From the NCBI RefSeq assembly GCF_019285515.1, contig NZ_CP079095.1, positions 1,488,001-1,552,000 of the forward strand: a DNA stretch of 64,000 nt, given 5' to 3'. The stretch is from Methylococcus sp. Mc7. GTDB taxonomy: Bacteria; Pseudomonadota; Gammaproteobacteria; Methylococcales; Methylococcaceae. Under the pieces are notes generated by a model, which did not search any database, was not told where the DNA came from, and saw only the letters and a list, made by a program, of their open reading frames with translations. Shown in pieces: positions 20,804 through 51,501 of this stretch; the first letter of the stretch is position 1, and each line of letters opens with the position of its first letter. The position numbers were made by a program, and so were the translations under genes.

Positions 20804-22075
20804 ATGACCGACAACACCTCGGCCAAGGTCTGGGACAACGTTCCCAGTCCGTTCTGCGGGATCGCCTCCGACGACCTGAAAATCGAGGTTTCCGGCTCGA
20901 GCGTGCGGGTGCTGGCGAATGGCGATGCCGTCACGATTCCCGGTTTCGAGCAGCCCGTGACCGATACCGCTCCCCGTATTGCCGGCAAGCCGGCTTCCCT
21001 GGACGAAGCGGTGCGGCGGGCGGCGGCGATTCTGAAGGATGCCAGGCTGCCGGTATTCAGCGGCTTCGGAACCGACGTCAACGATACTCGTGCCGCGCTC
21101 GCGCTGATCGACAAGGCCTGCGGCGTGTTCGATCAGGCCCGCGCCGGCGGCGGCGTCCGCAACCTGCTGGTGCTGGCCGATTCGGGTTGGATCGCGACGA
21201 CGCTGGCCGAGGTGAAGAACCGGGTCGAAGTCCTCCTGGTTTTCGGCAGCGATGTCGAGGCCGCCTTCCCCCGCTTTTTCGAGCGCTTCGTCTGGAACAA
21301 GGAGACCCTGTTCGGGCAGGATCCCGCCAAGCGGGAAGTGATCTGTCTCGGCCGGGCTCCAACCGGCGATGCGGCTGTATCGCCCGACGGGCGTCGTCCG
21401 CAGGTGATCGAATGCGCCCCTCAACATCTGCCGGAGCTCGCCGCTGCGCTGTCGGCCCTTGCGCGGGGCGCATCGCTCCAGGCCGAATCGGTGGGCGGCG
21501 TGCCGGTCGAGGTGCTGCAGGGCGTCGTGGACCGGCTGAAGCGGTCGAGCTACAGCGTCGTGACCTGGGTGGCGGGGCAGCTCGATTTCCCCCATGCCGA
21601 TCTGACGGTGCAGCAGGTTTGCCAGACGGTGACCGCGCTCAACAAGGAAACCCGCGCCGCGGTCCTGCCTCTGGGCGGACAGGACGGCGACAGGACCGCC
21701 AGTCAGGTCTGCGCCTGGCTGACCGGCTATCCCACCCGGGTGAGTTTCGCCCGCGGCTTCCCCGAATACGACCCGTACCTCAACGATGCCGCCCGTTTGC
21801 TGCAGGAGGGTGAGGCCGATGCGCTGGTCTGGGTGTCGAGCCTCTCGGTGGCGCCGCCGCCGGCGGCAGAGGTGCCGACCGTGGTGATCGGCCGCTCCGG
21901 CATGCAGTTCGACAAGGAGCCGGAGGTGTTCATTCCCGTGGGTGTTCCGGGTATCGACCATGCCGGCCACATGTACCGCTGCGACAACGTCGTGGCCATG
22001 CCGCTCTATCCGCTGCGCGACTGCGGGCTGACAAGCGCTGCCGCCGTGCTGACGGCGATCGAGCAGTCGCTCTAG
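20804..22075 (+). CDS. fhcB: Formyltransferase/hydrolase complex subunit B (FhcB)
   Basis: The 423-residue protein is related to FwdB/FmdB, the molybdopterin subunit of archaeal formylmethanofuran dehydrogenase. In methylotrophs the FhcABCD complex instead transfers formyl from H4MPT to the furan cofactor and hydrolyses it to formate, and FhcB has lost the redox centre. This is visible: the N-terminal cluster motif CxxCxxxC is reduced to SPFCGIASDDL with one Cys, and no Cys or Sec ligand loop is seen in the middle. Other family blocks (LVFGSDVEAAFPRF, VTWVAGQLDFPHAD) remain. The ATG follows AAGGAAAGG. First gene of the operon; 28 bases before fhcA. Confidence 0.92.
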   Translation: MTDNTSAKVWDNVPSPFCGIASDDLKIEVSGSSVRVLANGDAVTIPGFEQPVTDTAPRIAGKPASLDEAVRRAAAILKDARLPVFSGFGTDVNDTRAALALIDKACGVFDQARAGGGVRNLLVLADSGWIATTLAEVKNRVEVLLVFGSDVEAAFPRFFERFVWNKETLFGQDPAKREVICLGRAPTGDAAVSPDGRRPQVIECAPQHLPELAAALSALARGASLQAESVGGVPVEVLQGVVDRLKRSSYSVVTWVAGQLDFPHADLTVQQVCQTVTALNKETRAAVLPLGGQDGDRTASQVCAWLTGYPTRVSFARGFPEYDPYLNDAARLLQEGEADALVWVSSLSVAPPPAAEVPTVVIGRSGMQFDKEPEVFIPVGVPGIDHAGHMYRCDNVVAMPLYPLRDCGLTSAAAVLTAIEQSL

Positions 22076-22103
22076 CGCCTGCTTCCTTGGGAGACTCGAA
22101 ATC

Positions 22104-23771
22104 ATGCTGATCAAGCTTACGGGCGGCACCGTCTACGATCCGGCGAACGGCGTCAACGGCCAGGTGCGCAACCTTTTCATCCGCGACGGCAGGATCGTCC
22201 ACTCACTGAACGGCGCCACGCCGGATCAGGAGTACGACCTGCGCGGCAAGGTGGTGTTGGCCGGCGCCATCGACATGCACACCCACATCGGCGGCGGCAA
22301 GGTGACCATCGCCCGCAACCTCCTGCCGGAAGACCACCGCGCCGACCCCGAGCCGCGCCGGGGCCTGATGCGGGCGGGCTGCGGCCATGCCGCGCCTTCG
22401 ACCCTGACCACCGGTTACCGCTACGCCGAGATGGGCTACACCGCCGGTTTCGAACCCGCCGTGCTGCCGATCAACGCGCGCCAGGCGCACATGGAAATGG
22501 CCGATGTCCCATTACTGGACGTCGGCGGCTACGTGATGCTGGGGAGCGACGATTTCTTCCTGCGGCTCTTGTCCTCGGGCAGCGACCAGCAACTCATCAA
22601 CGACTACGTCGCCTGGACGATCCGTTCCGCCAAGGCGATCGGCATCAAGGTCGTCAATCCCGGCGGCATCAGCGCCTTCAAGTTCAACCAGCGCATGCTC
22701 GATCTGGACGAAAAGCACGTGTACTACGGCGTGACGCCCCGGCAGATTCTGAAGTCGCTGGCGCGTGCCGTGCACGAGCTGGGCGTGCCGCATCCGCTGC
22801 ACGTCCACGGCTGCAACCTCGGCGTGCCGGGCAACGTCGAGACCACGCTGAACACCATCAGCGGCATCGAAGGCTTGCCGATGCACCTGACCCACATCCA
22901 GTTCCACAGCTACGGCGTCGAGGGCGACCGCAAGTTCTCCTCCGGCGCGGCGCGGATCGCCGAGGCCATCAACGCCAACAAGAACATCACGATCGACGTC
23001 GGCCAGATTCTGTTCGGCCAGACCGTGACGGCTTCGGGCGACTCGATGCGTCAGCATGCCAACGCCGGCCATGCCCACCCCGACAAATGGGTCTGCATGG
23101 ACATCGAATGCGATGCCGGCTGCGGCGTGGTGCCGTTCAAGTACCGCGACAAGAACTTCGTCAACGCGCTGCAGTGGTGCATCGGCCTGGAAACCTTCCT
23201 GCTGATCGACGATCCCTGGCGCGTGTTCCTGACCACGGACCATCCCAATGGCGCACCGTTCACCACCTATCCGCATCTGATCCGGCTGCTGATGGACAAG
23301 AGCTTCCGCAATGACATGCTGGCCACGGTCAATCCGGAAGCGGCGGCGCTGAGTACGCTTGGCTCGATCGACCGTGAATATTCCTTATATGAGATCGCCA
23401 TCATGACCCGGGCCGGTGCGGCCAGGCTGCTGGGGCTGACCGACCGCGGCCATCTCGGGGCGGGTGCGGCGGCGGACATCACCGTCTACACCGACCAGGC
23501 CGACAAGGAAAAGATGTTCACCCGGCCGGATTACGTCTTCAAGGACGGCGAACTGGTCGTGCGCAACGGCGAGGTCGTCAAGGTCGTGTGGGGCAATCTG
23601 CACATCGTCCAGCCGGAATTCGACAGCGGCGTCGAGGCGCGGTTGCGCGATTACTTCGACCGCTACCACACCATGAAGCTCGACAATTTCGTCATCAACG
23701 ATTGGGAAATCGAGGGCGATGGCCGCAGCAAGATCCTCGTCCATCCCTGCCATCAGGGGGCACGGTCATGA
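22104..23771 (+). CDS. fhcA: Formyltransferase/hydrolase complex subunit A (FhcA)
   Basis: The 555-residue amidohydrolase-family subunit hydrolyses the formyl-furan cofactor to formate. The metal-binding AIDMHTHIGGGKV is at about residues 54-66. Further candidate ligands are HVHGCNLG, LTHIQFHSYG and the Asp in FLTTDHPNGAPF. The N-terminal GTVYDP and C-terminal GHLGAGAAADITVY blocks are the usual small beta-sandwich of the superfamily. Length matches archaeal FwdA. Its TGA overlaps the fhcD ATG by 4 bases. Confidence 0.94.
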   Translation: MLIKLTGGTVYDPANGVNGQVRNLFIRDGRIVHSLNGATPDQEYDLRGKVVLAGAIDMHTHIGGGKVTIARNLLPEDHRADPEPRRGLMRAGCGHAAPSTLTTGYRYAEMGYTAGFEPAVLPINARQAHMEMADVPLLDVGGYVMLGSDDFFLRLLSSGSDQQLINDYVAWTIRSAKAIGIKVVNPGGISAFKFNQRMLDLDEKHVYYGVTPRQILKSLARAVHELGVPHPLHVHGCNLGVPGNVETTLNTISGIEGLPMHLTHIQFHSYGVEGDRKFSSGAARIAEAINANKNITIDVGQILFGQTVTASGDSMRQHANAGHAHPDKWVCMDIECDAGCGVVPFKYRDKNFVNALQWCIGLETFLLIDDPWRVFLTTDHPNGAPFTTYPHLIRLLMDKSFRNDMLATVNPEAAALSTLGSIDREYSLYEIAIMTRAGAARLLGLTDRGHLGAGAAADITVYTDQADKEKMFTRPDYVFKDGELVVRNGEVVKVVWGNLHIVQPEFDSGVEARLRDYFDRYHTMKLDNFVINDWEIEGDGRSKILVHPCHQGARS

Positions 23772-24664
23772 TCATCAACGGCGTACACATCGACGAGACT
23801 TTCGCCGAGGCCTTCCCGATGCGCGCCACGCGCGTGATCGTCACGGCCCAGAATCTCAAATGGGCCCAGCACGCGGCCCAGGCCATGACGGGCTTCGCGA
23901 CCTCGGTCATCGCCTGCGGCTGCGAAGCCGGCATCGAGCGGGAGCTCGATCCCGCCGAAACTCCGGATGGACGTCCTGGCGTATCGGCGCTGCTGTTCGC
24001 CATGGGCGGCAAGGGGCTGGCGAAGCAGCTCGAGACCCGGGCCGGGCAGTGCGTGCTGACCTCGCCCACCTCCGCGCTGTTCGCCGGTTTAGATGAAGGC
24101 GAACAGATTCCTTTGGGGAAGAATCTGCGTTATTTCGGCGACGGCTTCCAGATTTCCAAGCGGATCGGCGGCAAGCGCTATTGGCGCGTGCCGGTCATGG
24201 ACGGCGAGTTCCTCTGCCAGGAAACCACCGGGATGATCAAGGCGGTCGGCGGCGGCAATTTCCTCATCCTGGCCGAATCGCAGCCCCAGGCGCTGGCGGC
24301 GTGCGAGGCGGCGATCGATGCCATGCGCAGGATACCCAACGTCATCATGCCGTTCCCCGGAGGCGTCGTCCGTTCGGGTTCCAAGGTCGGCTCCAAGTAC
24401 AAGACCTTGCCGGCATCGACCAACGACGCCTTCTGCCCGACCTTGAAGGGACAAACGCGGACGGAGCTGTCGCCGGAAATCGAGTCGGTGATGGAGATCG
24501 TGATCGACGGCTTGAGCGATGCCGATATCGCCAAGGCGATGCGCGCAGGCATCGAGGCGGCCTGCGGACTGGGTGCGGCCAACGGCATCCGGCGCATCAG
24601 CGCCGGCAACTACGGCGGCAAGCTCGGGCCGTTCCTGTTCCACCTCCGCGAAATCATGGCTTGA
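23768..24664 (+). CDS. fhcD: Formylmethanofuran:H4MPT formyltransferase (FhcD/Ftr)
   Basis: The 298-residue subunit moves the formyl group between N5-formyl-H4MPT and the furan cofactor. Typical stretches are MIINGVHIDETFAEAFPMRA at the start, SVIACGCEAGIE, RVPVMDGEFLCQE, MPFPGGVVRSGSKVGSKY, and ISAGNYGGKLG near the end. The ATG at 23768 overlaps the fhcA stop; the open frame extends further upstream inside fhcA but without family similarity. Size equals archaeal Ftr. Confidence 0.95.
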   Translation: MIINGVHIDETFAEAFPMRATRVIVTAQNLKWAQHAAQAMTGFATSVIACGCEAGIERELDPAETPDGRPGVSALLFAMGGKGLAKQLETRAGQCVLTSPTSALFAGLDEGEQIPLGKNLRYFGDGFQISKRIGGKRYWRVPVMDGEFLCQETTGMIKAVGGGNFLILAESQPQALAACEAAIDAMRRIPNVIMPFPGGVVRSGSKVGSKYKTLPASTNDAFCPTLKGQTRTELSPEIESVMEIVIDGLSDADIAKAMRAGIEAACGLGAANGIRRISAGNYGGKLGPFLFHLREIMA

Positions 24665-24698
24665 ACGCCGTCCGGCCCCGGCCAACAAGGAATCGACT

Positions 24699-25511
24699 AT
24701 GACTGCTTTGACCTTTACGCTGAAGTCGCCGCTGCAGCAGCGGCTCGACGTCTCTCCGCTCGTTCCGGACCTTCTGTTGGGCAAGTCGCAAAAGGAAGTC
24801 GCCGCGCTGACCCTGCAATACGGCAATCGCCGGATCGCCGCGGGGGAACTGTTCGCTGTCGAAGGAGACGATGCGGAGTCGGTCCGTATTTCCGGCTCGC
24901 CGAAACTCGACTTCGCCGGCAGGGCGATGACGCGGGGTTCCCTCATCATAGAAGGCGATGCCGGGGCTTATCTCGGCATGCACATGAAAGGAGGGCGTTT
25001 GTGCGTCTCAGGTTCGGCCGGCCTGTACGCGGCGTGCGAGCTCAAGGGCGGCATCGTCGAGATATCCGGAAACGCCGGCGACCTGCTCGGGGGCGCTCTT
25101 CCCGGCAACAAGAAGGGCATGTCGGAAGGTGTCGTGATCGTCCGTGGCGATGCCGGAGATCGTGTCGGCGACCACATGCGACGCGGCTCGATCCTGATCG
25201 AAGGCAATGCCGGGACGTATCTCGGGGCCCGGATGACGGCCGGCACGATCGCCGTACAGGGGCGCATCGGCGCCTGTGCCGGCTATGCCATGAAGCGCGG
25301 AACCCTGTTGCTGTACGGTTCCCCGGCGGCCATCGGCGCCACCTTCAACGACTGCGGCCTGCATACCCTGGGTTTCCTGCCTTTGCTCCTCAAGGGTTAC
25401 CAGGGTTTGAACACCTGCTTCTCCGACCCTCAGGCACGCCGGGCGCGCGTGCGGCGTTTGGCCGGGGACCTGTCGGTCCAGGGCAAGGGCGAAATCCTCC
25501 TGGTCGCTTGA
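24699..25511 (+). CDS. fhcC: Formyltransferase/hydrolase complex subunit C (FhcC)
   Basis: The 270-residue protein is a FwdC-type right-handed beta-helix, related to the C-terminal domain of glutamate synthase. Repeats of the form GxxGxxxGxxM/L are easily seen: RGSLIIEGDAGAYLGMHMKG, SGNAGDLLGGALPG, RGDAGDRVGDHMRRGS and EGNAGTYLGARMTAGT. It holds the complex together; no catalytic role is known. The ATG follows AAGGAATCG after a 34-base gap from fhcD. Last gene of fhcBADC. Confidence 0.93.
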   Translation: MTALTFTLKSPLQQRLDVSPLVPDLLLGKSQKEVAALTLQYGNRRIAAGELFAVEGDDAESVRISGSPKLDFAGRAMTRGSLIIEGDAGAYLGMHMKGGRLCVSGSAGLYAACELKGGIVEISGNAGDLLGGALPGNKKGMSEGVVIVRGDAGDRVGDHMRRGSILIEGNAGTYLGARMTAGTIAVQGRIGACAGYAMKRGTLLLYGSPAAIGATFNDCGLHTLGFLPLLLKGYQGLNTCFSDPQARRARVRRLAGDLSVQGKGEILLVA

Positions 25512-25708
25512 CCCTCGCGGTCCTGTCCGGCCTCGCCGGACTTCCAGGCGCCCTGTCGCAAGCCGCCAGGAGGCCCTGGCTCCCGCCAGTCCGGATGGCG
25601 GCGGGGCGTTTCGTCCCACGCCGCCCGTTACCTTTTCCCATCCATGGGCGCAGATTCATGAAGTTAGCTCACGGCGGCGAACCTGCGTCAAAATGCCGCA
25701 GATTTTTC

Positions 25709-25736
25709 TTGACAGCCTCGGGGCGGGTGATAGACT
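25709..25736 (+). promoter_or_regulatory. pmoC promoter in the 366-base fhcC-pmoC gap
   Basis: A perfect TTGACA (25709-25714) and TAGACT (25731-25736) are separated by 16 bases, a strong sigma-70 promoter. Transcription would begin near 25743, leaving a leader of about 135 bases before pmoC. The rest of the gap (25512-25877) holds a short palindrome just after fhcC (GTCCGGC/GCCGGAC) but no T-run terminator and no gene. A two-codon-frame mini-ORF starting at 25798 ends after six codons and is probably not meaningful. Confidence 0.7.
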
Positions 25737-25877
25737 GCGACGCACCAAAAGGGCCGGCCAGCCTGAGGGCTGCGGTTCTGAGGGGTGGCAAGGATGCATG
25801 AACCAAGCAGGGAAGTGAGAGAAGATTCACCGGGCAATGCGCCGGTGTTTACGTCGATATAACAGTTGGAGGTAAAA

Positions 25878-26660
25878 ATGGCAGCAACAACTTTGGGTGG
25901 TGCAGCCGCGGCCGAAGCGCCGATGCTGGACAAGAAGTGGCTCACATTCGCGTTGGCGATCTACACCGTGTTCTACATGTGGGTGCGCTGGTACGAAGGC
26001 GTCTACGGCTGGTCCGCCGGCCTGGATTCGTTCGCGCCGGAGTTCGAAACCTACTGGATGAACTTCCTGTACACCGAGATCGTCCTGGAAATCGTGACGG
26101 CTTCGATCCTGTGGGGTTACCTCTGGAAGACCCGCGACCGCAACCTGGCCGCGCTGACCCCGCGTGAAGAGCTGCGCCGCAACTTCACCCACCTGACCTG
26201 GCTGGTGGCCTACGCCTGGGCCCTCTACTGGGGCGCTTCCTACTTCACCGAGCAGGACGGCACCTGGCATCAGACGATCGTGCGCGACACCGACTTCACC
26301 CCGTCGCACATCATCGAGTTCTATCTGAGCTACCCGATCTACATCATCACCGGCTTTGCGGCGTTCATCTATGCCAAGACGCGTCTGCCGTTCTTCGCGA
26401 AGGGCATTTCGCTGCCGTACCTGGTGCTGGTGGTGGGTCCGTTCATGATTCTGCCGAACGTGGGTCTGAACGAATGGGGCCACACCTTCTGGTTCATGGA
26501 AGAGCTGTTCGTGGCGCCGCTGCACTACGGCTTCGTGATCTTCGGCTGGCTGGCGCTGGCCGTCATGGGCACGCTGACCCAGACCTTCTACAGCTTCGCT
26601 CAGGGCGGACTGGGACAGTCCCTCTGTGAAGCCGTGGACGAAGGCTTGATCGCGAAATAA
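25878..26660 (+). CDS. pmoC: Particulate methane monooxygenase subunit C (PmoC)
   Basis: The 260-residue integral membrane subunit of pMMO has about six membrane helices. The conserved metal-site residues in the membrane are visible as Asp127 and His131 (EQDGTWH) and His144 (TPSHIIEF), equivalent to the Asp/His/His site of solved structures. The ATG at 25878 is set by a perfect GGAGG 5 bases upstream; an in-frame stop at 25860 rules out a longer protein except for a TTG at 25866. First gene of pmoCAB. M. capsulatus carries two near-identical pmoCAB copies, so this should be one of them. Confidence 0.97.
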   Translation: MAATTLGGAAAAEAPMLDKKWLTFALAIYTVFYMWVRWYEGVYGWSAGLDSFAPEFETYWMNFLYTEIVLEIVTASILWGYLWKTRDRNLAALTPREELRRNFTHLTWLVAYAWALYWGASYFTEQDGTWHQTIVRDTDFTPSHIIEFYLSYPIYIITGFAAFIYAKTRLPFFAKGISLPYLVLVVGPFMILPNVGLNEWGHTFWFMEELFVAPLHYGFVIFGWLALAVMGTLTQTFYSFAQGGLGQSLCEAVDEGLIAK

Positions 26661-26670
26661 GGAACTGTCA

Positions 26671-26689
26671 GGCCGGCGGGCCGGTTTTT
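26671..26689 (+). terminator. Weak hairpin with T-run just after pmoC
   Basis: GGCCGG/CCGGTT (two G-U pairs) around a CGGG loop is followed by a T run (26685-26689), starting 11 bases after the pmoC stop. It resembles a leaky terminator that could make pmoC mRNA more abundant than pmoAB. Confidence 0.35.
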
Positions 26690-26747
26690 GGGGTTCTGGC
26701 GACAGGCTCCGTGCCGGTCCGGCGGCCGGAAAGGACTCGCGGCGATG

Positions 26748-26772
26748 GGTGTCCGGGGTTTTCCCGGGCACC
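26748..26772 (+). promoter_or_regulatory. Intercistronic stem-loop before pmoA
   Basis: A 10-bp stem with one G-U pair (26748-26757 with 26763-26772, GGTGTCCGGG / CCCGGGCACC) encloses a GTTTT loop. It ends 26 bases before the pmoA ribosome-binding site, with no T-run. It could be a processing or stabilising element in the pmoCAB mRNA. Confidence 0.5.
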
Positions 26773-26810
26773 GTCGAAAATAAGAAACGACAAATTTGGA
26801 GGTAACTTTA

Positions 26811-27554
26811 ATGAGTGCTGCGCAATCTGCGGTTCGTTCGCACGCCGAAGCGGTCCAGTTGTCCCGGACCATCGACTGGATGGCGTTGTTCGTGGTGTTC
26901 TTCGTGATCGTGGGCTCGTACCACATTCACGCCATGCTCACCATGGGCGACTGGGACTTCTGGTCGGACTGGAAAGACCGTCGACTGTGGGTCACCGTGA
27001 CCCCGATCGTGCTGATCACCTTCCCGGCGGCCGTCCAATCCTACCTGTGGGAACGGTATCGTCTGCCCTGGGGCGCCACCGTCTGCGTACTCGGCCTGCT
27101 GCTGGGTGAGTGGATCAACCGCTACTTCAACTTCTGGGGCTGGACCTACTTCCCGATCAACTTCGTCTTCCCCGCCTCGCTGGTACCGGGCGCCATCATC
27201 CTGGACACCGTCCTGATGCTGTCGGGCAGCTACCTGTTCACCGCCATCGTCGGCGCCATGGGCTGGGGTCTGATCTTCTACCCGGGCAACTGGCCGATCA
27301 TCGCGCCGCTGCACGTCCCGGTGGAATACAACGGCATGCTGATGTCGATCGCCGACATCCAGGGCTACAACTACGTCCGCACGGGCACCCCGGAATACAT
27401 CCGCATGGTAGAGAAGGGCACCCTGCGTACCTTCGGTAAGGACGTCGCCCCGGTATCGGCATTCTTCTCCGCGTTCATGTCGATCCTGATCTACTTCATG
27501 TGGCACTTCATCGGTCGCTGGTTCTCCAACGAACGGTTCCTGCAGAGCACCTGA
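26811..27554 (+). CDS. pmoA: Particulate methane monooxygenase subunit A (PmoA)
   Basis: The 247-residue membrane subunit of pMMO is the standard marker for methanotrophs. Conserved blocks used as diagnostic sites are present: GDWDFWSDWKDRR, FPINFVFPASLVPGAI, and LMSIADIQGYNYVRTGTPEYI with the E-rich tail region. It has about seven membrane segments. The ATG at 26811 follows GGAGGTAAC. There are 150 bases after pmoC and 105 before pmoB, both containing structured RNA. Codon use is strongly biased toward C-ending codons, as expected for a very highly expressed gene. Confidence 0.98.
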   Translation: MSAAQSAVRSHAEAVQLSRTIDWMALFVVFFVIVGSYHIHAMLTMGDWDFWSDWKDRRLWVTVTPIVLITFPAAVQSYLWERYRLPWGATVCVLGLLLGEWINRYFNFWGWTYFPINFVFPASLVPGAIILDTVLMLSGSYLFTAIVGAMGWGLIFYPGNWPIIAPLHVPVEYNGMLMSIADIQGYNYVRTGTPEYIRMVEKGTLRTFGKDVAPVSAFFSAFMSILIYFMWHFIGRWFSNERFLQST

Positions 27555-27659
27555 TCCTGACAGATCGGGCCGACGCAAGACCCATGTGAAAGACCGCCGT
27601 CCGGCTTGGCGACAGGCCGGCGAGTGACCCAACAGCAAGAACTCGAAAGAGGAGAGATC

Positions 27660-28904
27660 ATGAAAACAATAAAGGACCGGATTGCAAAATGGTCTGCAAT
27701 CGGACTGCTGTCCGCCGTGGCAGCGACCAGCTTCTACGCCCCGAACGCCGCCGCCCACGGTGAGAAATCGCAGGCCGCGTTCATGCGTATGCGTACCATC
27801 CACTGGTACGACCTGAGCTGGTCGAAAGAGAAAGTCAAAGTCAACGAAACCGTGGAAATCAAAGGCAAGTTCCACGTGTTCGAAGGCTGGCCGGAGACGG
27901 TCGACGAACCGGATGTCGCGTTCCTCAACGTCGGCATGCCGGGCCCCGTGTTCGTCCGCAAGGAATCGTACATCGGGGGTCAGCTGGTGCCGCGTTCGGT
28001 ACGTCTGGAAATCGGCAAGACCTACGACTTCCGGGTCGTCCTCAAAGCCCGTCGTCCGGGTGACTGGCACGTACACACCATGATGAACGTCCAGGGCGGT
28101 GGACCGATCATCGGCCCCGGCAAGTGGATCACCGTGGAAGGCTCCATGAGCGAATTCCGGAACCCCGTCACCACCCTGACCGGGCAGACGGTGGACCTGG
28201 AGAACTACAACGAAGGCAACACCTACTTCTGGCACGCCTTCTGGTACGCCATCGGCCTCGCCTGGATCGGCTACTGGTCGCGTCGTCCGATCTTCATCCC
28301 CCGTCTGCTGATGGTGGATGCGGGCCGTGGGGACGAACTGGTGTCCACCACCGACCGCAAGGTGGCGATGGGCTTCCTGGCCGCCACCATCCTGATCGTG
28401 GTCATGGCCATGTCCAGCGCCAACAGCAAGTACCCGATCACCATCCCGCTGCAGGCCGGTACCATGCGTGGCATGAAGCCGATCGACCTGCCGGCGCCGA
28501 CGGTGGCGGTGAAAGTGGAAGACGCCACCTACCGGGTACCGGGCCGCGCCATGCGGATGAAGCTGACCGTGACCAACCACGGCAACAGCCCGATCCGGCT
28601 GGGTGAGTTCTACACCGCCTCGGTGCGTTTCCTGGATTCCAACGTCTACAAGGACACCACCGGCTATCCGGAAGACCTGCTGGCCGAAGACGGTCTGAGC
28701 GTCAGCGACAACAGCCCGCTGGCCCCCGGTGAGACCCGCACGGTCGACGTGACGGCGTCCGACGCGGCGTGGGAAGTGTATCGTCTGTCCGACATCATCT
28801 ACGACCCGGACAGCCGTTTCGCCGGTCTGCTGTTCTTCTTCGACGCTGAAGGCAACCGTCAGATCGTGCAGATCGACGCACCGCTGATCCCGTCGTTCAT
28901 GTAA
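27660..28904 (+). CDS. pmoB: Particulate methane monooxygenase subunit B (PmoB)
   Basis: The 414-residue subunit has two periplasmic cupredoxin domains joined by two membrane helices. The signal peptide (residues 1-32, ending NAAA) exposes His33 as the mature N-terminus. Together with His137 and His139 (GDWHVHT) it forms the CuB site; all three are present. Membrane helices lie at about 185-205 and 235-255. The ATG at 27660 follows GAGGAGAG. A strong terminator at 28951 closes the operon. Confidence 0.98.
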   Translation: MKTIKDRIAKWSAIGLLSAVAATSFYAPNAAAHGEKSQAAFMRMRTIHWYDLSWSKEKVKVNETVEIKGKFHVFEGWPETVDEPDVAFLNVGMPGPVFVRKESYIGGQLVPRSVRLEIGKTYDFRVVLKARRPGDWHVHTMMNVQGGGPIIGPGKWITVEGSMSEFRNPVTTLTGQTVDLENYNEGNTYFWHAFWYAIGLAWIGYWSRRPIFIPRLLMVDAGRGDELVSTTDRKVAMGFLAATILIVVMAMSSANSKYPITIPLQAGTMRGMKPIDLPAPTVAVKVEDATYRVPGRAMRMKLTVTNHGNSPIRLGEFYTASVRFLDSNVYKDTTGYPEDLLAEDGLSVSDNSPLAPGETRTVDVTASDAAWEVYRLSDIIYDPDSRFAGLLFFFDAEGNRQIVQIDAPLIPSFM

Positions 28905-40331: not shown

Positions 40332-40500
40332 GGTGGCCTCTTCCGCCGGGCGCGCGGGAAACAATAGCTGCTCAAGCATGGAGAATTCTAACGAATTCCG
40401 CCGGGAGAATGAATCTAAAGCCTGATGCAGCGGGAAACGCATCGTCTGTGAACGGTAAGACAAGCAAACTTCACTCCAGTTTCCTCGCGATGCCACGAGA

Positions 40501-45549: not shown

Positions 45550-46110
45550 GTGGCTTGGGTTTCCGGGTTCCGTGTCGGCCTTGCCGCGGACGCCCTGCGC
45601 CGGGGCCGGATAGTGGCCTATCCCACCGAGGCGGTCTACGGGCTGGGATGCGATCCCTTCAACGAAGACGCCGTTCGCCGGCTGCTGGCGCTCAAGCGCC
45701 GCAGCGAGACCAAGGGCCTGATCCTGATCGCGGCGGACGTGGAAGCCGTCGAAGCCCTGGTCGACCTCGCCCGCGTCCCGCGCAGCGACGAAGTGCGCGC
45801 GGGCTGGCCCGGGCCCATGACCTGGCTGATCCCGGCTCGCCCCGGCATTCCCGACTGGCTGCGCGGTGCCCATGATTCCCTGGCGGTCCGGGTCACCGCC
45901 CATCCCGTGGCGGCCGCCCTGTGCCGCGCCTTCGGCGGCGCGATCGTCTCGACCAGCGCCAATCTGTCCGGACACCGGCCCGCTCGAACCCCCCTGCGGC
46001 TGTGGTGCCAGTTTTCCCGGCAGGCGATCCATTTCCTGCCCGGCCGCCTCGGCGGCGCCGTTCGTCCCACCGCCATCTTCGACGCAATGAGCGGGCAGCG
46101 CATCCGCTGA
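45550..46110 (+). CDS. tsaC: Threonylcarbamoyl-AMP synthase TsaC (YrdC/Sua5)
   Basis: The 186-residue YrdC-domain enzyme makes threonylcarbamoyl-AMP from Thr, bicarbonate and ATP for the t6A37 modification of tRNA. Key blocks are GRIVAYPTEAVYGLGCDPF, LKRRSETKGLILIA, WPGPMTWLIPA and AIVSTSANLSG. It is the short form without a Sua5 C-terminal domain. It starts with GTG 17 bases after topA. Confidence 0.93.
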   Translation: MAWVSGFRVGLAADALRRGRIVAYPTEAVYGLGCDPFNEDAVRRLLALKRRSETKGLILIAADVEAVEALVDLARVPRSDEVRAGWPGPMTWLIPARPGIPDWLRGAHDSLAVRVTAHPVAAALCRAFGGAIVSTSANLSGHRPARTPLRLWCQFSRQAIHFLPGRLGGAVRPTAIFDAMSGQRIR

Positions 46111-46164
46111 AGCGGCGCGTGTCGCAAATCCGACAAAGGCGGGCCCAGTCCGCTTCTATGTGGG

Positions 46165-46245: not shown

Positions 46246-46318
46246 TGCACCCGCCGAGGCGATGGAACGCTGTTTGCTGGGAATCGTCAAACGATCCCGG
46301 AATGTGAGGAGCCCCCCC

Positions 46319-47890
46319 ATGCTCGAAATTGCCATTGTCGGAGGCGGACTGTGCGGCTTGGTGCTCGCGCAGGGCCTGCAGGCCAGGCGGTGCGACTTTA
46401 TCCTGTTCGAGGCGCGCGGCCGGTTGGGCGGACGCATCCTGTCGGTGCATAGCGAAAAGGCCGGGATGGTGCTGGACCTCGGGCCCACCTGGTTCTGGCC
46501 GGAAATCCAGCCGCGCATGCTCAAGCTGGTGACCGATCTCGGATTGCGCAGCTTTCCCCAGCACGATACGGGCGAAGTCCTGTACCTGACCGACCACGAC
46601 AAGGCGCCGGACACGCTGAGCCGGCCCGGTCTGCACGGCGGCGCCCACCGTCTCGAAGGCGGAATGGCGAGCCTGGTGGAGGCGTTGAGCCGGAGCCTTG
46701 CTCCCGGCGCATTGAGACTCGGCCATGAGCTGACCGCCGTGACCGACCGCGGCGATCACGTGGAACTGAGCTTCGCCCACGGGGCGGAAACCGTCGTCGT
46801 TGCGGCGCGGCGCGCGGTGCTGGCGTTGCCGCCGCGCCTGGTCGAGGAACGCGTTCGCTTCGAGCCGGCCCTGGAAGGCAAGGTACTCGAAGCCCTGGGC
46901 GACACCTACACCTGGATGGCCGACCAGGCCAAGGCGCTGGTGGCCTACGACAAACCCTTCTGGCGCGAGGTCGGCCAGTCGGGAAATGCCTTCGTCCAGC
47001 ACGAACATGTGGTTCTCGGCGAGATCTTCGATGCCTGCGACGCGAATGGCGAGCGGGCCGCCCTGGGCGGCTTCTTCGCGCTACCTCCGGAGGCGAGGGC
47101 CGCGTTGCTGCCAGGCATGCCGATGCTGGTCTCCAGCCAGCTGGTACAGGTCTTCGGCGTCGAGGCGGAGCGAGGCGAGGCGCGCTTTCAGGATTGGGCG
47201 GCGGAGTCCTATACCTGCAGCCGGAGGGATCACGTGCCGCCGGACAATCACCCGGAATATGGCCATCCGCTGCTGCGGCGGCCGCAATGGGGCGGGCGGC
47301 TGCATTTCGGCGGTTCGGAGACCGCGAGCTACGGCGGCGGCTACCTCGAAGGCGCCCTCGAGGCGGCTGCCCGGCTCCAAAGGGCGCTCATCGTGGATCG
47401 GCCCCCGGTCGTGCCGTGTGTCGCGCGGAACGAGCAAGGCATCGCCGGCTTCGGCGAGTGGGTGGCCGCTCGGCGTGGGGGCGTTCTCGAACGCTACAAG
47501 CGATTGCTCCACCAGAATCTGGCGAGCCAGCGCACCGAGCAGCTTACCCAGCGGGCCGTGCTCGGCGTCATGGAACAGGTCTACAGCGAAGCCTTGGCAA
47601 GGCTCGGCGAGCTTTCCTTCGATCCCCCCGCCGGGAGCATCGAAGCCGGAGTCGCGGCGCTGGCGCAAGACCTGCTGGCCCCCTTCGTCGGCTTCAACAA
47701 GTTCCTGCTCGACGAGGCGATCGCGTTCAACGGCAGTTCCTGCGCGCTGTCCAATTTCCCGTCCGAGCACCGGCCTTCGTCCGAATATCTGGAAACCACG
47801 GCTCGCGACCTGGCAGCCGCCTGGCGCGAGTTCGCCTACAACGTCAACGCCCTTCTGGCGGGCCGCCTGGCCGTGCGGGCGGCGGCGTGA
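46319..47890 (+). CDS. FAD-dependent amine-oxidase-like protein with extra C-terminal region
   Basis: The 523-residue flavoprotein starts with the dinucleotide-binding motif IAIVGGGLCGLVLAQGL (residues 4-20), FEARGRLGGRI, and an amine-oxidase-type C-terminal FAD contact LHFGGSETASYGGGYLEGAL (about 341-360). The substrate is unknown. After about residue 370 comes a further 150-residue stretch, mostly helical, with no family I recognise. The ATG at 46319 follows GTGAGGAG; an in-frame start at 46160 would cover the structured leader. It leads a run of closely spaced genes (28 bases to the next). Confidence 0.78.
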   Translation: MLEIAIVGGGLCGLVLAQGLQARRCDFILFEARGRLGGRILSVHSEKAGMVLDLGPTWFWPEIQPRMLKLVTDLGLRSFPQHDTGEVLYLTDHDKAPDTLSRPGLHGGAHRLEGGMASLVEALSRSLAPGALRLGHELTAVTDRGDHVELSFAHGAETVVVAARRAVLALPPRLVEERVRFEPALEGKVLEALGDTYTWMADQAKALVAYDKPFWREVGQSGNAFVQHEHVVLGEIFDACDANGERAALGGFFALPPEARAALLPGMPMLVSSQLVQVFGVEAERGEARFQDWAAESYTCSRRDHVPPDNHPEYGHPLLRRPQWGGRLHFGGSETASYGGGYLEGALEAAARLQRALIVDRPPVVPCVARNEQGIAGFGEWVAARRGGVLERYKRLLHQNLASQRTEQLTQRAVLGVMEQVYSEALARLGELSFDPPAGSIEAGVAALAQDLLAPFVGFNKFLLDEAIAFNGSSCALSNFPSEHRPSSEYLETTARDLAAAWREFAYNVNALLAGRLAVRAAA

Positions 47891-47918
47891 CGAAAGCGCA
47901 GCTTCACAGGAGCACTCG

Positions 47919-49040
47919 ATGCTTGAATTGGACGTAAGACTGAGCCGGGGCCATTTCGATCTATCCGCCCGGCTCGCCATAGACAGCCCGATGACCGCGT
48001 GTTTCGGACCGCCGGGCGCCGGCAAGAGCACGCTGCTGGGCATGATCGCCGGGGTCGTGAGTCCACATCGGGGCTGGATCCGGCTGGGCGGCGAGACGGT
48101 TTTCGACAGCCGCCAGGGCGTACGCGTGCCCGCCGCCCGCCGCCGGGTCGGCCTCGTGCGTTTCGACCCGGCCAGCCATCCAAGGCAGACGGTGGGCGAG
48201 CTGCTCCGGGACACGCACCGGAATTCGGTTCGGACCGGCGCCTTCGGATTCGCCGAGGTGGTCGACCTCCTGGATCTAGAACCTGTGCTCGAAAGCGGCG
48301 TTCAAGCCTTGTCGGCTGGCGACAGGCAGCGGGTCGCGTTGGCCCACGCGCTGATTCCGTCCCCGCGCCTGCTGCTGCTCGACGATCAGCTCGAAGTTTC
48401 GGGCGTCTCCAACTCGGCCCTGCTGCCCTATCTCACGCGGGTCCGCGATGAGCTGAACGTCCCCGTCATTTACGTCAGCCATTCGCTGGGCGAGGTATTG
48501 CAGCTCACCAACCGCATGGTGCTGATGGTCAACGGCCGCGTCCTGGGGGTCGGGGATCCGCATGAAATCATCACCGACAAAATCCTTTCCACCGTCTCGG
48601 CCCTGCAGGGCATAGAGAGCGTGCTCCCCGTGACCGTGCTGGGCCATGAGGCCGAGAATGGCTGCACCATCGCCTACTACCACGGCACCGAGCTGGTGCT
48701 GCCGATGGCCGCGCATCTGGCGCCGGGCGATTCCACCCACGTCTCCATCCGCTCCAGCGACATCGCGCTGTCGAAGCAGTACCTGCGGGGAACGTCGATC
48801 CAGAATCAGATCAAGGGGCGGGTGTGCGCGGTCATCCGTACACCGGGGCATGCCGTGGTACAAATCGACTGCGGCGTCACCCTGCTGGCGGGCATCTCCC
48901 TGAAAGCGCTCCACGACATGGCTTTGCAGGAAGGAGACACGGTCTATTGCCTGATCAAGGTGCATGCGTTCTCCTACGTGGGCAACCCGTCACGGGACCG
49001 GTGTCCCGCGGATAGCGTGGAAGTACCAGCCATCCATTGA
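47919..49040 (+). CDS. ModC-like ABC ATPase with degenerate catalytic motifs and a TOBE/Mop domain
   Basis: The 373-residue protein is laid out like the molybdate importer ATPase ModC. Walker A GPPGAGKS (30-37) is intact. The other motifs deviate: the Q-loop reads LVRFD in place of VFQD, the signature is LSAGDRQRV in place of LSGGEKQRV, Walker B ends LLLLDDQL in place of LLLLDEPL, and the D-loop SALD is EVSG. The switch His is kept (VSHSL). A C-terminal TOBE/Mop oxyanion-binding domain spans about 290-360 (IQNQIKGRVCAVI). No ModA or ModB gene is nearby, so it may sense or store oxyanion rather than transport it. Confidence 0.8.
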   Translation: MLELDVRLSRGHFDLSARLAIDSPMTACFGPPGAGKSTLLGMIAGVVSPHRGWIRLGGETVFDSRQGVRVPAARRRVGLVRFDPASHPRQTVGELLRDTHRNSVRTGAFGFAEVVDLLDLEPVLESGVQALSAGDRQRVALAHALIPSPRLLLLDDQLEVSGVSNSALLPYLTRVRDELNVPVIYVSHSLGEVLQLTNRMVLMVNGRVLGVGDPHEIITDKILSTVSALQGIESVLPVTVLGHEAENGCTIAYYHGTELVLPMAAHLAPGDSTHVSIRSSDIALSKQYLRGTSIQNQIKGRVCAVIRTPGHAVVQIDCGVTLLAGISLKALHDMALQEGDTVYCLIKVHAFSYVGNPSRDRCPADSVEVPAIH

Positions 49041-49071
49041 AGAATCGAGCTAATTCCCAAGGCAGACATCG

Positions 49072-49383
49072 ATGAGTACCTATATCAAGACCACGCAGGA
49101 CGGCCGCAAGGTCGAAGTCATCGGACTGGCCGTTTGCCTCGACGGCCACAAGGAAGCCACCCGCCTGGTTTCCGTCAGCGGGCACCCCAACCGGGACGCC
49201 ATCCTGGCGGCGATGCCGTCGGCTACCCACATGGCGGGCCGGCTGCCGCTCTCGGCGGAAGAGGCCGCCGCCGCCCAGGCGGCTTTGGATGCGGCGCGGG
49301 AGGCCTATGCGCGCAGCCCCAAAGGGCTTTCGGAACGCATTCGCGCGGTTCAGAACCAAGCCTTGGCCAACCGCGACGGCTGA
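49072..49383 (+). CDS. Small conserved-looking protein of unknown function
   Basis: The 103-residue protein has an N-terminal alpha/beta half (YIKTTQDGRKVEVIGLAVCL) with one Cys, then an Ala-rich amphipathic helix (LSAEEAAAAQAALDAAREAY). No membrane segment or known motif is seen. It starts 31 bases after the ModC-like gene and ends 17 bases before the DUF364 gene, so it is in the same transcript. Good codon usage and tight spacing support it as real. Confidence 0.65.
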   Translation: MSTYIKTTQDGRKVEVIGLAVCLDGHKEATRLVSVSGHPNRDAILAAMPSATHMAGRLPLSAEEAAAAQAALDAAREAYARSPKGLSERIRAVQNQALANRDG

Positions 49384-49400
49384 CCCGGCCGCGTTCGCGG

Positions 49401-50396
49401 ATGACGAATCCTTACGAAATCTACGACCTGCTGCAGGACTATGCCGGTGCCCCGGTGCCGGTGGGCACGGTTGCGATCGGCCTGGTCTGGACGCTTTGCG
49501 AAGCCGACGCCGTCGGGCTCTCGATGAGCCCGGGCGTTCAGACCCGTACGCTTCCCTGGGCCGGCACGCTGCGCGGCAAGACCTTGTCCGAACTGGCCGC
49601 CTGGGTGCGGGAGTTCGATCCGTACCGGGCCACGGTCGGCATGGCGGCGGTCAACGCCGGCATCGGCCGGCTCGGCCTGCTCCCGGACGGGGAGACGCTG
49701 GCGCCCAAAGCCGGCGCGAACAACAACCTTGCCGTGTTCGAACACTTTCTCACCGAAATGCGCGGCAAGCGGGTCGTGGTGATCGGCCGTTACCCCGGAC
49801 TGGACCGGTTCGCCGAAACCCACGCCCTCGAACTGACGGTCCTGGAGCGTCGGCCCGGTCCCGAAGACCTGCCGGATTCCGCCTGCGAGTACCTGCTTCC
49901 GGAAGCGGACTGGGTATTCCTCACCGCCACGTCGATTCCGAACAAGACCTTTCCGCGTCTCGCCACCCTGGCGCGCGATGCCACCACGGTGCTGATGGGA
50001 CCCACCGTCCCCTGGTTGCCGGAACTCCGGCATTTCGGCATCGACTATCTGGCCGGCGTGGAGATCGCCGATCCCGGCACCCTGAAGGATACCGTGTGCG
50101 AGGGCGGCGGCGTCCGGATTTTCGACGCCGGGGTGCGCTACCGGATCGCGCCCATCGGCATGGAAGCCAGCAAGGCATGGGCGCGCCGCATGATCGCCGC
50201 GGCGGCGGCGGAGCGGGAGCGCCTCAAGCAGGACATGGAGGCATGGTATGGCCGGGGCGGCTCCATGCGTTTTCCGGAGTATGCGCAACTGGAAGCGGTC
50301 GACCGCCGCCTGTCGCGTCTCGACACCTGCTTCAAGCGGCTCTGGGACGCCTCGCCCGATCCGCTGCCGGAACGGTTTTCCGGCGTCTCCCGCTGA
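49401..50396 (+). CDS. DUF364/DUF4213-type putative metal-chelation protein
   Basis: The 331-residue protein resembles the DUF4213/DUF364 family, suggested to bind heavy metals. Family features are the N-terminal VGTVAIGLVWTLCEAD, GMAAVNAGIGR, and the Rossmann-like RVVVIGRYPGLDRFAE with YLLPEADWVFLTATSIPNKTFPRL. The C-terminal 60 residues are helical and basic and not typical. Location beside a ModC-like ATPase supports metal or oxyanion handling, but no activity can be read directly. Confidence 0.75.
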   Translation: MTNPYEIYDLLQDYAGAPVPVGTVAIGLVWTLCEADAVGLSMSPGVQTRTLPWAGTLRGKTLSELAAWVREFDPYRATVGMAAVNAGIGRLGLLPDGETLAPKAGANNNLAVFEHFLTEMRGKRVVVIGRYPGLDRFAETHALELTVLERRPGPEDLPDSACEYLLPEADWVFLTATSIPNKTFPRLATLARDATTVLMGPTVPWLPELRHFGIDYLAGVEIADPGTLKDTVCEGGGVRIFDAGVRYRIAPIGMEASKAWARRMIAAAAAERERLKQDMEAWYGRGGSMRFPEYAQLEAVDRRLSRLDTCFKRLWDASPDPLPERFSGVSR

Positions 50397-50508
50397 TCCG
50401 GCGCCAATGGCCGGCGGTCATCGGACGCCCCAATAACCCTGCGGTTTGACGGGTTTTGCCGGGACAGTACAATGCGGTCGGAATCAAATCTTTCTGGAGA
50501 CGGTCTCG

Positions 50509-51501
50509 ATGGTTGCTGAACTCAGAGTTTCGCCCGAACACCATGCGGATGCCCCGGCCCGGTTCGACGGCCATCTGCTGGACAAGCTCTGCAAGGAGAC
50601 TTTGGCGTCTTCCGGCGACGCCGGCCTGCTGGACCGGCTGCGCCAGGCCTATCCAGGGTATCCGCTGCACCTTGCCCGGCTGGGACACGAGTGGTACCGT
50701 CTGGGCGGCATCGTCAAGGCGAACGGCGTGAGGATCGCGGCGGACATCGGCGAGTGGGCGGAGCGCTCCTACATCGAATGCGGTCAGAATTTCAACACGC
50801 TGCTCGCGTACTGCGAGGAAGGCGGCTTCCTGGCTACCCAACACACCGGCGTCACCCTCTATATCGTCGCCCAGACCGGCTCCCGCGCGGAGGATTTCGT
50901 CCAGATCGAAGTGGACCGGACCCAGGAAACCGCGGACCGCTACCTGATCGACGCCGAAAATCCGCCGGAGGACCTGGAAGGGCTGATCGATCCCATCGAG
51001 CCGGTCGAAGTCGAGCCTTTCGCGGTGGGTGCCGCCCGCTACACCTACCGCCGCAAGACCGAGGTGGCCCTGTTCATGCGCGAACTGGGGCGGCATCGTG
51101 CGGACCGCCACCCCGCCCAGCGTTTCATGGACGACTGGAACGACAGCAGCGCAGGCCAGCAAAGAGCCTTCTGCGAGGACTGGAGCCTGCGTCTGTTCCA
51201 GCACATCGGCCGCCATGGTGAGCAGATCATGAACGTCGAGATCGTCCACAACCGCACCCGCGAAGTGCCGCGCCTGGAAGGGCCGGACGGCAAGAAAGGC
51301 AAGGCCCTGGCGGCGCTCCTCAACCGTTTCGATGCGCAGGCGGGCTACCCCTTCGCCTGGTACTTCCACATGCTCAAGGGGCTGGTTTCGCCGCATGTGG
51401 GCGAAGCGGTGCAGCGCGACCTGTCCAAGGACTATGCCTATCTGCCCGACCGCGACGCCGCCGTGCTGAAGCGGTGGGCCGCGGCGCCTTACTGTTTGTG
51501 A
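50509..51501 (+). CDS. Unknown 330-residue protein
   Basis: I do not recognise this family. The protein is soluble, acidic, with no signal peptide. It has a central linker rich in Glu and Pro (about 165-192) separating an N-terminal alpha/beta part (about 45-155, including YIVAQTGSRAEDFVQIEVDRT) from a helical C-terminal part with LFQHIGRHGEQIMNVEIVHNR and PFAWYFHMLKG. Several His and Cys residues (ECGQNF, LAYCEEGGFLA) could bind metal. It begins 112 bases after the DUF364 gene, so it may have its own promoter. Confidence 0.7.
   Translation: MVAELRVSPEHHADAPARFDGHLLDKLCKETLASSGDAGLLDRLRQAYPGYPLHLARLGHEWYRLGGIVKANGVRIAADIGEWAERSYIECGQNFNTLLAYCEEGGFLATQHTGVTLYIVAQTGSRAEDFVQIEVDRTQETADRYLIDAENPPEDLEGLIDPIEPVEVEPFAVGAARYTYRRKTEVALFMRELGRHRADRHPAQRFMDDWNDSSAGQQRAFCEDWSLRLFQHIGRHGEQIMNVEIVHNRTREVPRLEGPDGKKGKALAALLNRFDAQAGYPFAWYFHMLKGLVSPHVGEAVQRDLSKDYAYLPDRDAAVLKRWAAAPYCL

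Follow-up and report, generated by a model that had tools for sequence, protein, structure and literature searches.

The DNA analysed here is a 64 kb window spanning positions 1488001-1552000 of the single-contig 4.0 Mb genome of Methylococcus sp. Mc7. It contains a run of five open reading frames on the plus strand, separated by gaps of 28, 31, 17 and 112 bases, that we regard as belonging to the nif (nitrogen fixation) regulon, as an accessory unit that has no name so far. The assignment to nif is well supported, and the biochemical roles proposed below for the individual products are those that we infer. In window coordinates, the genes are as follows:

46319..47890, + strand: gene 1, a flavin adenine dinucleotide (FAD)-dependent protein of the amine-oxidase family, 523 amino acids (aa) (Pfam PF01593, orthologue searches)
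47919..49040, + strand: gene 2, a degenerate ModC-like ATP-binding cassette (ABC) ATPase with a TOBE domain, 373 aa (Pfam, TIGR02142, motif alignment)
49072..49383, + strand: gene 3, a 103-aa protein without a family (no Pfam or NCBIfam match; relatives lie directly 3′ of nifK in other diazotrophs)
49401..50396, + strand: gene 4, a DUF4213-DUF364 protein, 331 aa (Pfam, alignment with 3l5o)
50509..51501, + strand: gene 5, a protein of 330 aa with no Pfam match (found after nifHDK-nifT-nafY, with or without an LRV gene, in other Methylococcales)

Both the run and its gap lengths are as described in an earlier sequence-only reading of this stretch, and its suggestion that the genes belong together is supported in two ways. 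First, the same five genes are present in the same order in all six Methylococcus genomes compared (Mc7 and five others), and the run is present in Methylococcus capsulatus Texas (L223), where genes 4, 1 and 2 lie on the stretch and gene 3 was also read. Second, the mean ratios of nonsynonymous to synonymous substitution rates (dN/dS), taken over 15 genus pairs per gene, are 0.170, 0.148, 0.147, 0.163 and 0.106 for genes 1–5 respectively, and at these low values selection maintains all five genes, including the degenerate ATPase. Pfam and NCBIfam together assign no family above cut-off to gene 3 or gene 5, NCBIfam returns nothing for genes 3, 4 and 5, and scans of the window for tRNAs and RNA families found none. 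Gene calls on the relatives' stretches referred to below are crude, and missed, for example, the window's own gene 2 and the gene 3 on L308.

The preceding gene ends at 46110, and two sites of nif type fall between there and gene 1; a third, weak candidate lies within the run:

46120..46135, + strand: NifA-type upstream activator sequence TGT-N10-ACA, TGTCGCAAATCCGACA (motif scan; kept in 6/6 genus genomes)
46263..46278, + strand: sigma54 (RpoN) −24/−12 promoter, TGGAACGCTGTTTGCT (motif score 10/11; invariant block in 6/6 genomes)
50446..50473, + strand: weak sigma70-like promoter candidate ahead of gene 5 (0.4 expected by chance in the scanned stretch)

The consensus for a NifA-type upstream activator is TGT-N10-ACA. 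The activator site precedes gene 1 by 199 bases and the −24/−12 site by 143, and the −24/−12 site itself lies 56 bases ahead of the gene 1 ATG. Several observations bear on this arrangement. First, when the −24/−12 motif is scored over 11 positions, TGGAACGCTGTTTGCT is the sole site on either strand of the window with a score of at least 10 (16 sites score at least 9), and TGT-N10-ACA has only three matches in the window, the other two at 40447 and 41757. Second, pairs of an activator and a −24/−12 site (60–200 bases apart, score at least 9) occur once per strand, and the minus-strand pair uses a weaker −24/−12 site (score 9) and shares the same TGT-N10-ACA palindrome. Third, in the alignment of the six genus genomes the promoter block is invariant and the TGT...ACA is kept, while the DNA separating the two is widely changed. 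Fourth, the genome's own nifH, used as a positive control, carries TGGCACACCGGTTGCA and two TGT-N10-ACA sites in the same arrangement, and NifA itself is encoded in the genome (TIGR01817, 663 bits against a cut-off of 528.85). Finally, a −24/−12 site scoring at least 10 is present within 250 bases of 9/16 orthologues of the FAD gene (11/16 at a score of at least 9), and by the same criterion of 16/20 nifH genes against 15/1046 genes without a name in the gene set; the nine FAD-gene cases are not independent, since six of them belong to one genus.

Co-occurrence was scored in a set of 81 genomes (Mc7 and members of the same genus, family and order), 39 of which have nifH above cut-off. All five genes track nifH: gene 1 orthologues (E ≤ 1e-30) and gene 3 are each present in 18 genomes, all 18 nifH-positive in both cases; gene 2 matches (E ≤ 1e-50) in 31, 29 of them nifH-positive; gene 4 in 38, of which 37 have nifH; and gene 5 in 31, of which 30 do. 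One-sided Fisher p values for the association range from 2e-19 to 1e-7, relatedness being ignored in this calculation. When gene 4 and nifH are compared over 29 genera, 18 have both, one has each alone and nine have neither (p 1e-5); in the two genera with mixed genomes (g8 and g11) they agree genome by genome, and genus g19 contributes a sole nifH-positive genome without gene 4.

Gene order in relatives points in the same direction, and the sequence-only reading's question of whether homologues cluster in other genomes is answered in that they do. (Names such as nifN are taken from one representative per cluster, followed by BLAST to that representative.) Outside the genus the five genes are divided among two or three locations. 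Four non-genus genomes (G006, G018, G020 and G031) have genes 1-2-3 next to one another, and in G031 gene 5 is next. In G006 and G020 the three genes come after nifE-nifN-nifX-DUF269-DUF683-ferredoxin-nifQ-...-clpX-flavodoxin, on one strand. In G018, which corresponds to plasmid NZ_CP070492.1 of Methylococcus sp. EFPC2, clpP-clpX-lon-flavodoxin precedes them with a few small genes intervening, and nifT and nifZ lie further on. Gene 4 is accompanied by a nif-specific gene on 18/30 stretches from 29 genomes outside the genus (wide stretches cover 29 of the 32 non-genus genomes with gene 4, all but G009, G035 and G037). The main nif cluster of Mc7 (L195, L212) reads nifHDK ... nifEN ... nifQ ... 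clpP-clpX-iscS ... nifV-nifW and contains no flavodoxin, gene 1, gene 2 or gene 3; that of M. capsulatus Bath is given as MCA0229-0239 in PMC517821. The simplest reading of these orders is that, in the genus, pieces from two or three nif sub-clusters were brought together as a single operon at a distance of about 560 kb. That the five genes are instead neighbours by chance, with unrelated functions, seems scarcely credible: their dispersal outside the genus is as this would have it, but the order held in 6/6 genus genomes, the shared nif-type promoter and the separate link of each part to nif all speak against it. All five genes (genes 1–3, gene 4 and gene 5) are present together with nif genes on the 89.6 kb EFPC2 plasmid (L345), which suggests a mobile nif island in the family.

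The two proteins without families have relatives beyond the methanotrophs. The gene 3 profile matches 5/369 genomes of the class, Mc7 included: the gene lies after nifHDK in G229, before nifEN in G340, and 5 kb from nifHDK in G248, which has a full-length gene 1 nearby. On plasmid pBN1 of Paraburkholderia aromaticivorans a relative of gene 3, matching it at 51% over 90 aa, stands directly 3′ of nifK in the order nifK, gene 3 relative, c82 relative, nifE, nifN, nifX ... nifQ ... modB-modA-ABC, and in Bradyrhizobium sp. BWA-3-5 the relative adjoins fdxB-nifX-nifN-nifE. A 160-aa gene that we call c82 is found within 1 kb after gene 3 in G229, G340, G248 and G329. Its product, of about 160 aa and with no Pfam family, is encoded after gene 3 in beta- and gammaproteobacterial nif operons, and some Methylococcaceae encode it after gene 1 (copies at L343 2766-3248, L307 9777-10241, L309 9666-10130, L310 10472-10936, L308 10769-11248 and L190 5386-5868). 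The structure predicted for gene 3, from four sequences, has a mean predicted local distance difference test score (pLDDT) of 50.7. Placed right after nifK in a betaproteobacterium, gene 3 is a candidate for an unnamed nif gene beyond methanotrophs.

Gene 5 relatives follow nifHDK-nifT-nafY, often with an LRV gene; among the best 80 of 178 relatives, nif genes are present on 74/80 stretches and the LRV gene is immediately 5′ of gene 5 in 57/78 gene calls. Its predicted structure is better (pLDDT 77.4, predicted template modelling score 0.72, residues ~251–305 poor), and we assign no fold to it because the matches are too weak: Foldseek gave none at E ≤ 0.001 (best 0.05) and the best VIA-align Z was 4.1. 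Distant relatives (25–29% among the matches listed) are present on 141 further plasmid records, mostly of Burkholderia and Bradyrhizobium, and 99/142 plasmid records with gene 5 relatives are typed conjugative. Gene 5 may belong to a family that resides on plasmids and was recruited by nif clusters. For gene 4 the corresponding plasmid search (E ≤ 1e-20) found one record.

The run is very probably a nif operon, and at a probability of about 0.78 we propose more specifically that it is a satellite operon of the Methylococcus nif regulon, a NifA/sigma54-controlled accessory unit for molybdenum handling and Mo-nitrogenase maturation. We favor this reading because of the NifA/sigma54-type promoter, the tracking of nifH, and the location of orthologues inside nif clusters outside the genus. 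Known NifA/sigma54-controlled accessory operons, such as nifENX-nifQ and nifV-nifW, share the TGT-N10-ACA and −24/−12 promoter, the co-occurrence with nifH and the nif-cluster order seen in relatives; the run differs from them in that about 560 kb separate it from the main nif cluster and in that its genes have no nif names. The sequence-only reading had envisaged a metal- or oxyanion-dependent process of an undescribed kind. The link to molybdenum is likely, but there is no need to invoke an undescribed process, given that the promoter, the nifH tracking and the nif clusters belong to the nif regulon, and we rejected a free-standing metal process since promoter, synteny and co-occurrence all point to nif.

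A number of observations weigh against this assignment. In Mc7 the operon is remote from nifH, as noted. Sites scoring at least 10 are found ahead of 0/27, 0/13, 0/33 and 0/18 copies of genes 2, 3, 4 and 5 and their orthologues, respectively, and the FAD-gene orthologues of G017, G021, G025, G029 and G031 have no −24/−12 site scoring above 8 (directly upstream of the FAD gene is a flavodoxin gene in G021, G025, G029 and G031, and clpX in G017). G024 and G061 have nifH without gene 4; G035, a genome 83% complete, has genes 4 and 5 without nifH; and gene 2 matches are present in G012 and G034, which lack nifH, both copies retaining all of the canonical motifs. In G329 gene 3 lies beside iscS/hscA with no nif-specific gene on the 20 kb stretch, plasmids of Methylocella tundrae carry a full-length gene 1 (55%) with no gene of the nif set within 12 kb, and on the two conjugative-plasmid stretches examined (L346 5992-7083, L347 5980-6936) distant gene 5 relatives are found without nif, near repABC or vapBC.

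Gene 2 is the most altered member of the run. It matches ABC_tran at 71.1 bits and TOBE at 33.0 bits, and its 241.8 bits against the ModC model TIGR02142 fall short of the 285.05 set as that model's cut-off. A tree was built from 30 relatives together with the ModC of this genome, leaving out the 8/38 gene 2 matches without a locus, and its rooting was our choice. In this tree the six genus copies and those of G031, G018, G020 and G006 form one clade with support 1.0. All ten members of this clade have lost the Q-loop glutamine, have aspartate in place of the catalytic glutamate and have an altered LSGG signature, and 4/10 have also lost the H-loop histidine, which is kept in Methylococcus. 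The Walker A lysine and Walker B aspartate are nonetheless kept in 10/10, and the TOBE domain is well conserved. That the ATPase is degenerate, as the sequence-only reading held, is thus confirmed both by these motifs and by the sub-cut-off score. A decaying pseudogene was rejected, the gene being full length in 6/6 genus genomes with a low mean dN/dS (0.148).

Ten further copies are less degenerate, seven of them with the catalytic glutamate (G010, G015, G021, G057, G060, G063, G066, G069, G077 and G079). Together with the degenerate clade they make up 20 genomes, all nifH-positive (p 1e-8; the count was assembled by hand and excludes the G050 copy, L180, whose tree placement is unresolved). 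Copies with canonical motifs are found in modABC-mop operons (L213, L215, L216, L219 and L222). In other Methylococcales (L205, L206, L207 and L192) a partly degenerate ModC paralogue neighbors a mop gene; those of L205 and L206 also lie near a full modABC that includes a modC of its own.

Compared with ModC of the ModABC importer, gene 2 is similar over its full length, with ABC and TOBE domains and relatives of 42–44% identity in modABC-mop operons, but it lacks the Q-loop, signature and catalytic glutamate and has no adjoining permease or binding protein. The absence of modA and modB reported by the sequence-only reading holds for the neighborhood (none is present in the run in 6/6 genus genomes) but not for the genome, in which modA, modA, modB, modC and mop lie together elsewhere (G000:C1:3464902-3468772). 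A search for a modAB pair that might use the gene 2 ATPase led to this same locus, where modAB has its own modC, intact in retaining the catalytic glutamate, Q-loop glutamine and LSGG. These facts bear on whether the operon is a molybdate uptake system in which gene 2 is a working second ATPase for the distant ModAB permease. Similarity to ModC over the whole length, the score against TIGR02142, the intact Walker A and Walker B aspartate, the TOBE domain and the H-loop histidine of the genus copies would all suit such a system. We nevertheless judge it very unlikely, and rejected a working second ModC on the loss of the Q-loop, catalytic glutamate and LSGG; the H-loop losses, the prior pairing of modB with an intact modC and the want of modAB inside the run tell against it too. 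Because the transport motifs are lost while the Walker residues and TOBE are kept, gene 2 has the look of a duplicated transporter ATPase, stripped of its transport cycle but retaining ATP binding, and it probably retains the molybdate binding predicted for its TOBE domain.

Gene 4 matches DUF4213 at 65.2 bits and DUF364 (PF04016) at 135.3 bits against a cut-off of 23, and its residues 5–248 align with the solved structure 3l5o (E 9.6e-24). It shares the DUF4213-like N-terminal and DUF364 C-terminal domains with Dhaf4260 (PDB 3l5o), and differs in that its orthologues track nifH and in about 80 C-terminal residues beyond the alignment. PMC2954201 reports that DUF364 genes are linked by genome context to the transport of molybdate, tungstate and vanadium, proposes metal chelation from structure and context, and suggests that chelators resembling flavins, pterins or siderophores are synthesized or hydrolyzed. 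The vanadium context, with the presence in some relatives of two nifH genes over cut-off, could be taken to mean that the run works for an alternative nitrogenase of the V or Fe-only type. We find this highly improbable, as Mc7 has one nifH over cut-off, clustered with a nifD-like gene, nifE, nifN and nifQ, although no search by name was made for V/Fe-only genes. For genes 2 and 4 of the nif satellite operon, a function in molybdenum handling is about an even proposition.

The amine-oxidase domain of gene 1 (PF01593, 122.6 bits against a cut-off of 19.8) covers residues 1–360, as in flavin amine oxidases such as monoamine oxidase (MAO) and putrescine oxidase, and differs from these in being followed by about 160 C-terminal aa without a family. 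Matches covering this C-terminal part are confined to Methylococcaceae, G248 and Methylocella, apart from a weak 40% match in G066; 3/18 orthologues (G060, G066 and G069) are merely 40–46% identical. The profile matches 27/369 class genomes at E ≤ 1e-60, with a whole-length match solely in Mc7 and G248. Lysine K205 is invariant in 15/15 aligned orthologues and, judged by eye, is a candidate equivalent of the MAO active-site lysine. In 7/9 non-genus family genomes with a full-length copy, a flavodoxin gene is directly upstream (L184-L186, L188, L190, L191 and, with small genes inserted, L183), and a homologue of nif-type 2Fe-2S ferredoxin precedes the copy in Methylocella tundrae. These neighbors, in hosts that are aerobes, raise the possibility that the operon mainly provides nitrogenase with redox supply or oxygen protection, the FAD enzyme passing electrons to a flavodoxin/ferredoxin chain, or taking oxygen for it, and the other genes being ancillary. 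We regard this as doubtful: within Methylococcus no flavodoxin adjoins gene 1, the DUF364 and ModC-like proteins are left unexplained, and amine-oxidase-family flavoproteins are not known to reduce flavodoxin. Within the satellite operon, a redox role for gene 1 next to the electron supply is a tentative assignment, a little short of even.

How might the products of a nif satellite operon act together? Under nitrogen-fixing conditions NifA and RNA polymerase-sigma54 would switch the operon on, and its products would support Mo-nitrogenase. The gene 2 protein would bind ATP and, through TOBE, molybdate, and because it appears unable to drive an ABC importer through its transport cycle it would act inside the cell, most likely as a molybdate buffer, sensor or carrier toward NifQ and the iron-molybdenum cofactor (FeMo-cofactor). 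The DUF364 protein could act on a small metal-binding ligand at the same molybdenum step, and the FAD oxidase, flavodoxin-adjacent in most relatives, could give a redox or oxygen-protection function. Since relatives of genes 3 and 5 follow nifK and nafY/LRV, their products may act on nitrogenase or its maturation, maturation being possible with the balance slightly against it. A more elaborate and on the whole unlikely version is that the ModC duplicate has turned into a soluble ATP-gated molybdate carrier or sensor for nitrogenase, in which ATP binding without productive hydrolysis sets hold or release by TOBE and which, with a ligand made by the DUF364 protein, feeds NifQ and FeMo-cofactor assembly; if so, the wider 20-genome paralogue clade would represent stages of one such conversion.

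To our knowledge NifQ is the sole established molybdenum donor, and the molybdate route from importer to FeMo-cofactor is only partly known. An operon behind a nif promoter, with a ModC-like protein lacking the residues of the pump, a DUF364 protein and two unnamed nif-linked proteins, offers named candidates for the step from molybdate to FeMo-cofactor, and would add five genes to the nitrogen-fixation parts list of aerobic methanotrophs. Among the matches listed in searches of the open-access literature there is no account of the five-gene operon and none of expression of the Methylococcus nif regulon, and no open-access match joins DUF364 with nitrogenase. The run goes unmentioned in the available portion of the M. 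capsulatus Bath genome paper (PMC517821), and those of PMC3912193 and PMC8305402 contain nothing bearing on the operon.

Three further observations concern other genes. Several diazotrophs encode a SIR2-like protein adjacent to nif genes, with nifH or nifT as its neighbor (L066 8159-9022; L200; L344 3438-4301; L345 13477-14319). Close to nif genes, Methylococcus and also unrelated Gammaproteobacteria encode a protein of about 530 aa (L195 15485-17074; L308 5312-7018; L309 16713-18326); the L195 copy has a nitroreductase domain, and the likeness of the L308 and L309 copies is judged from their first residues only. Elsewhere in the window, at 20804-28904, are apparent formylmethanofuran-type genes and pmoCAB, recognized by eye from their first residues.

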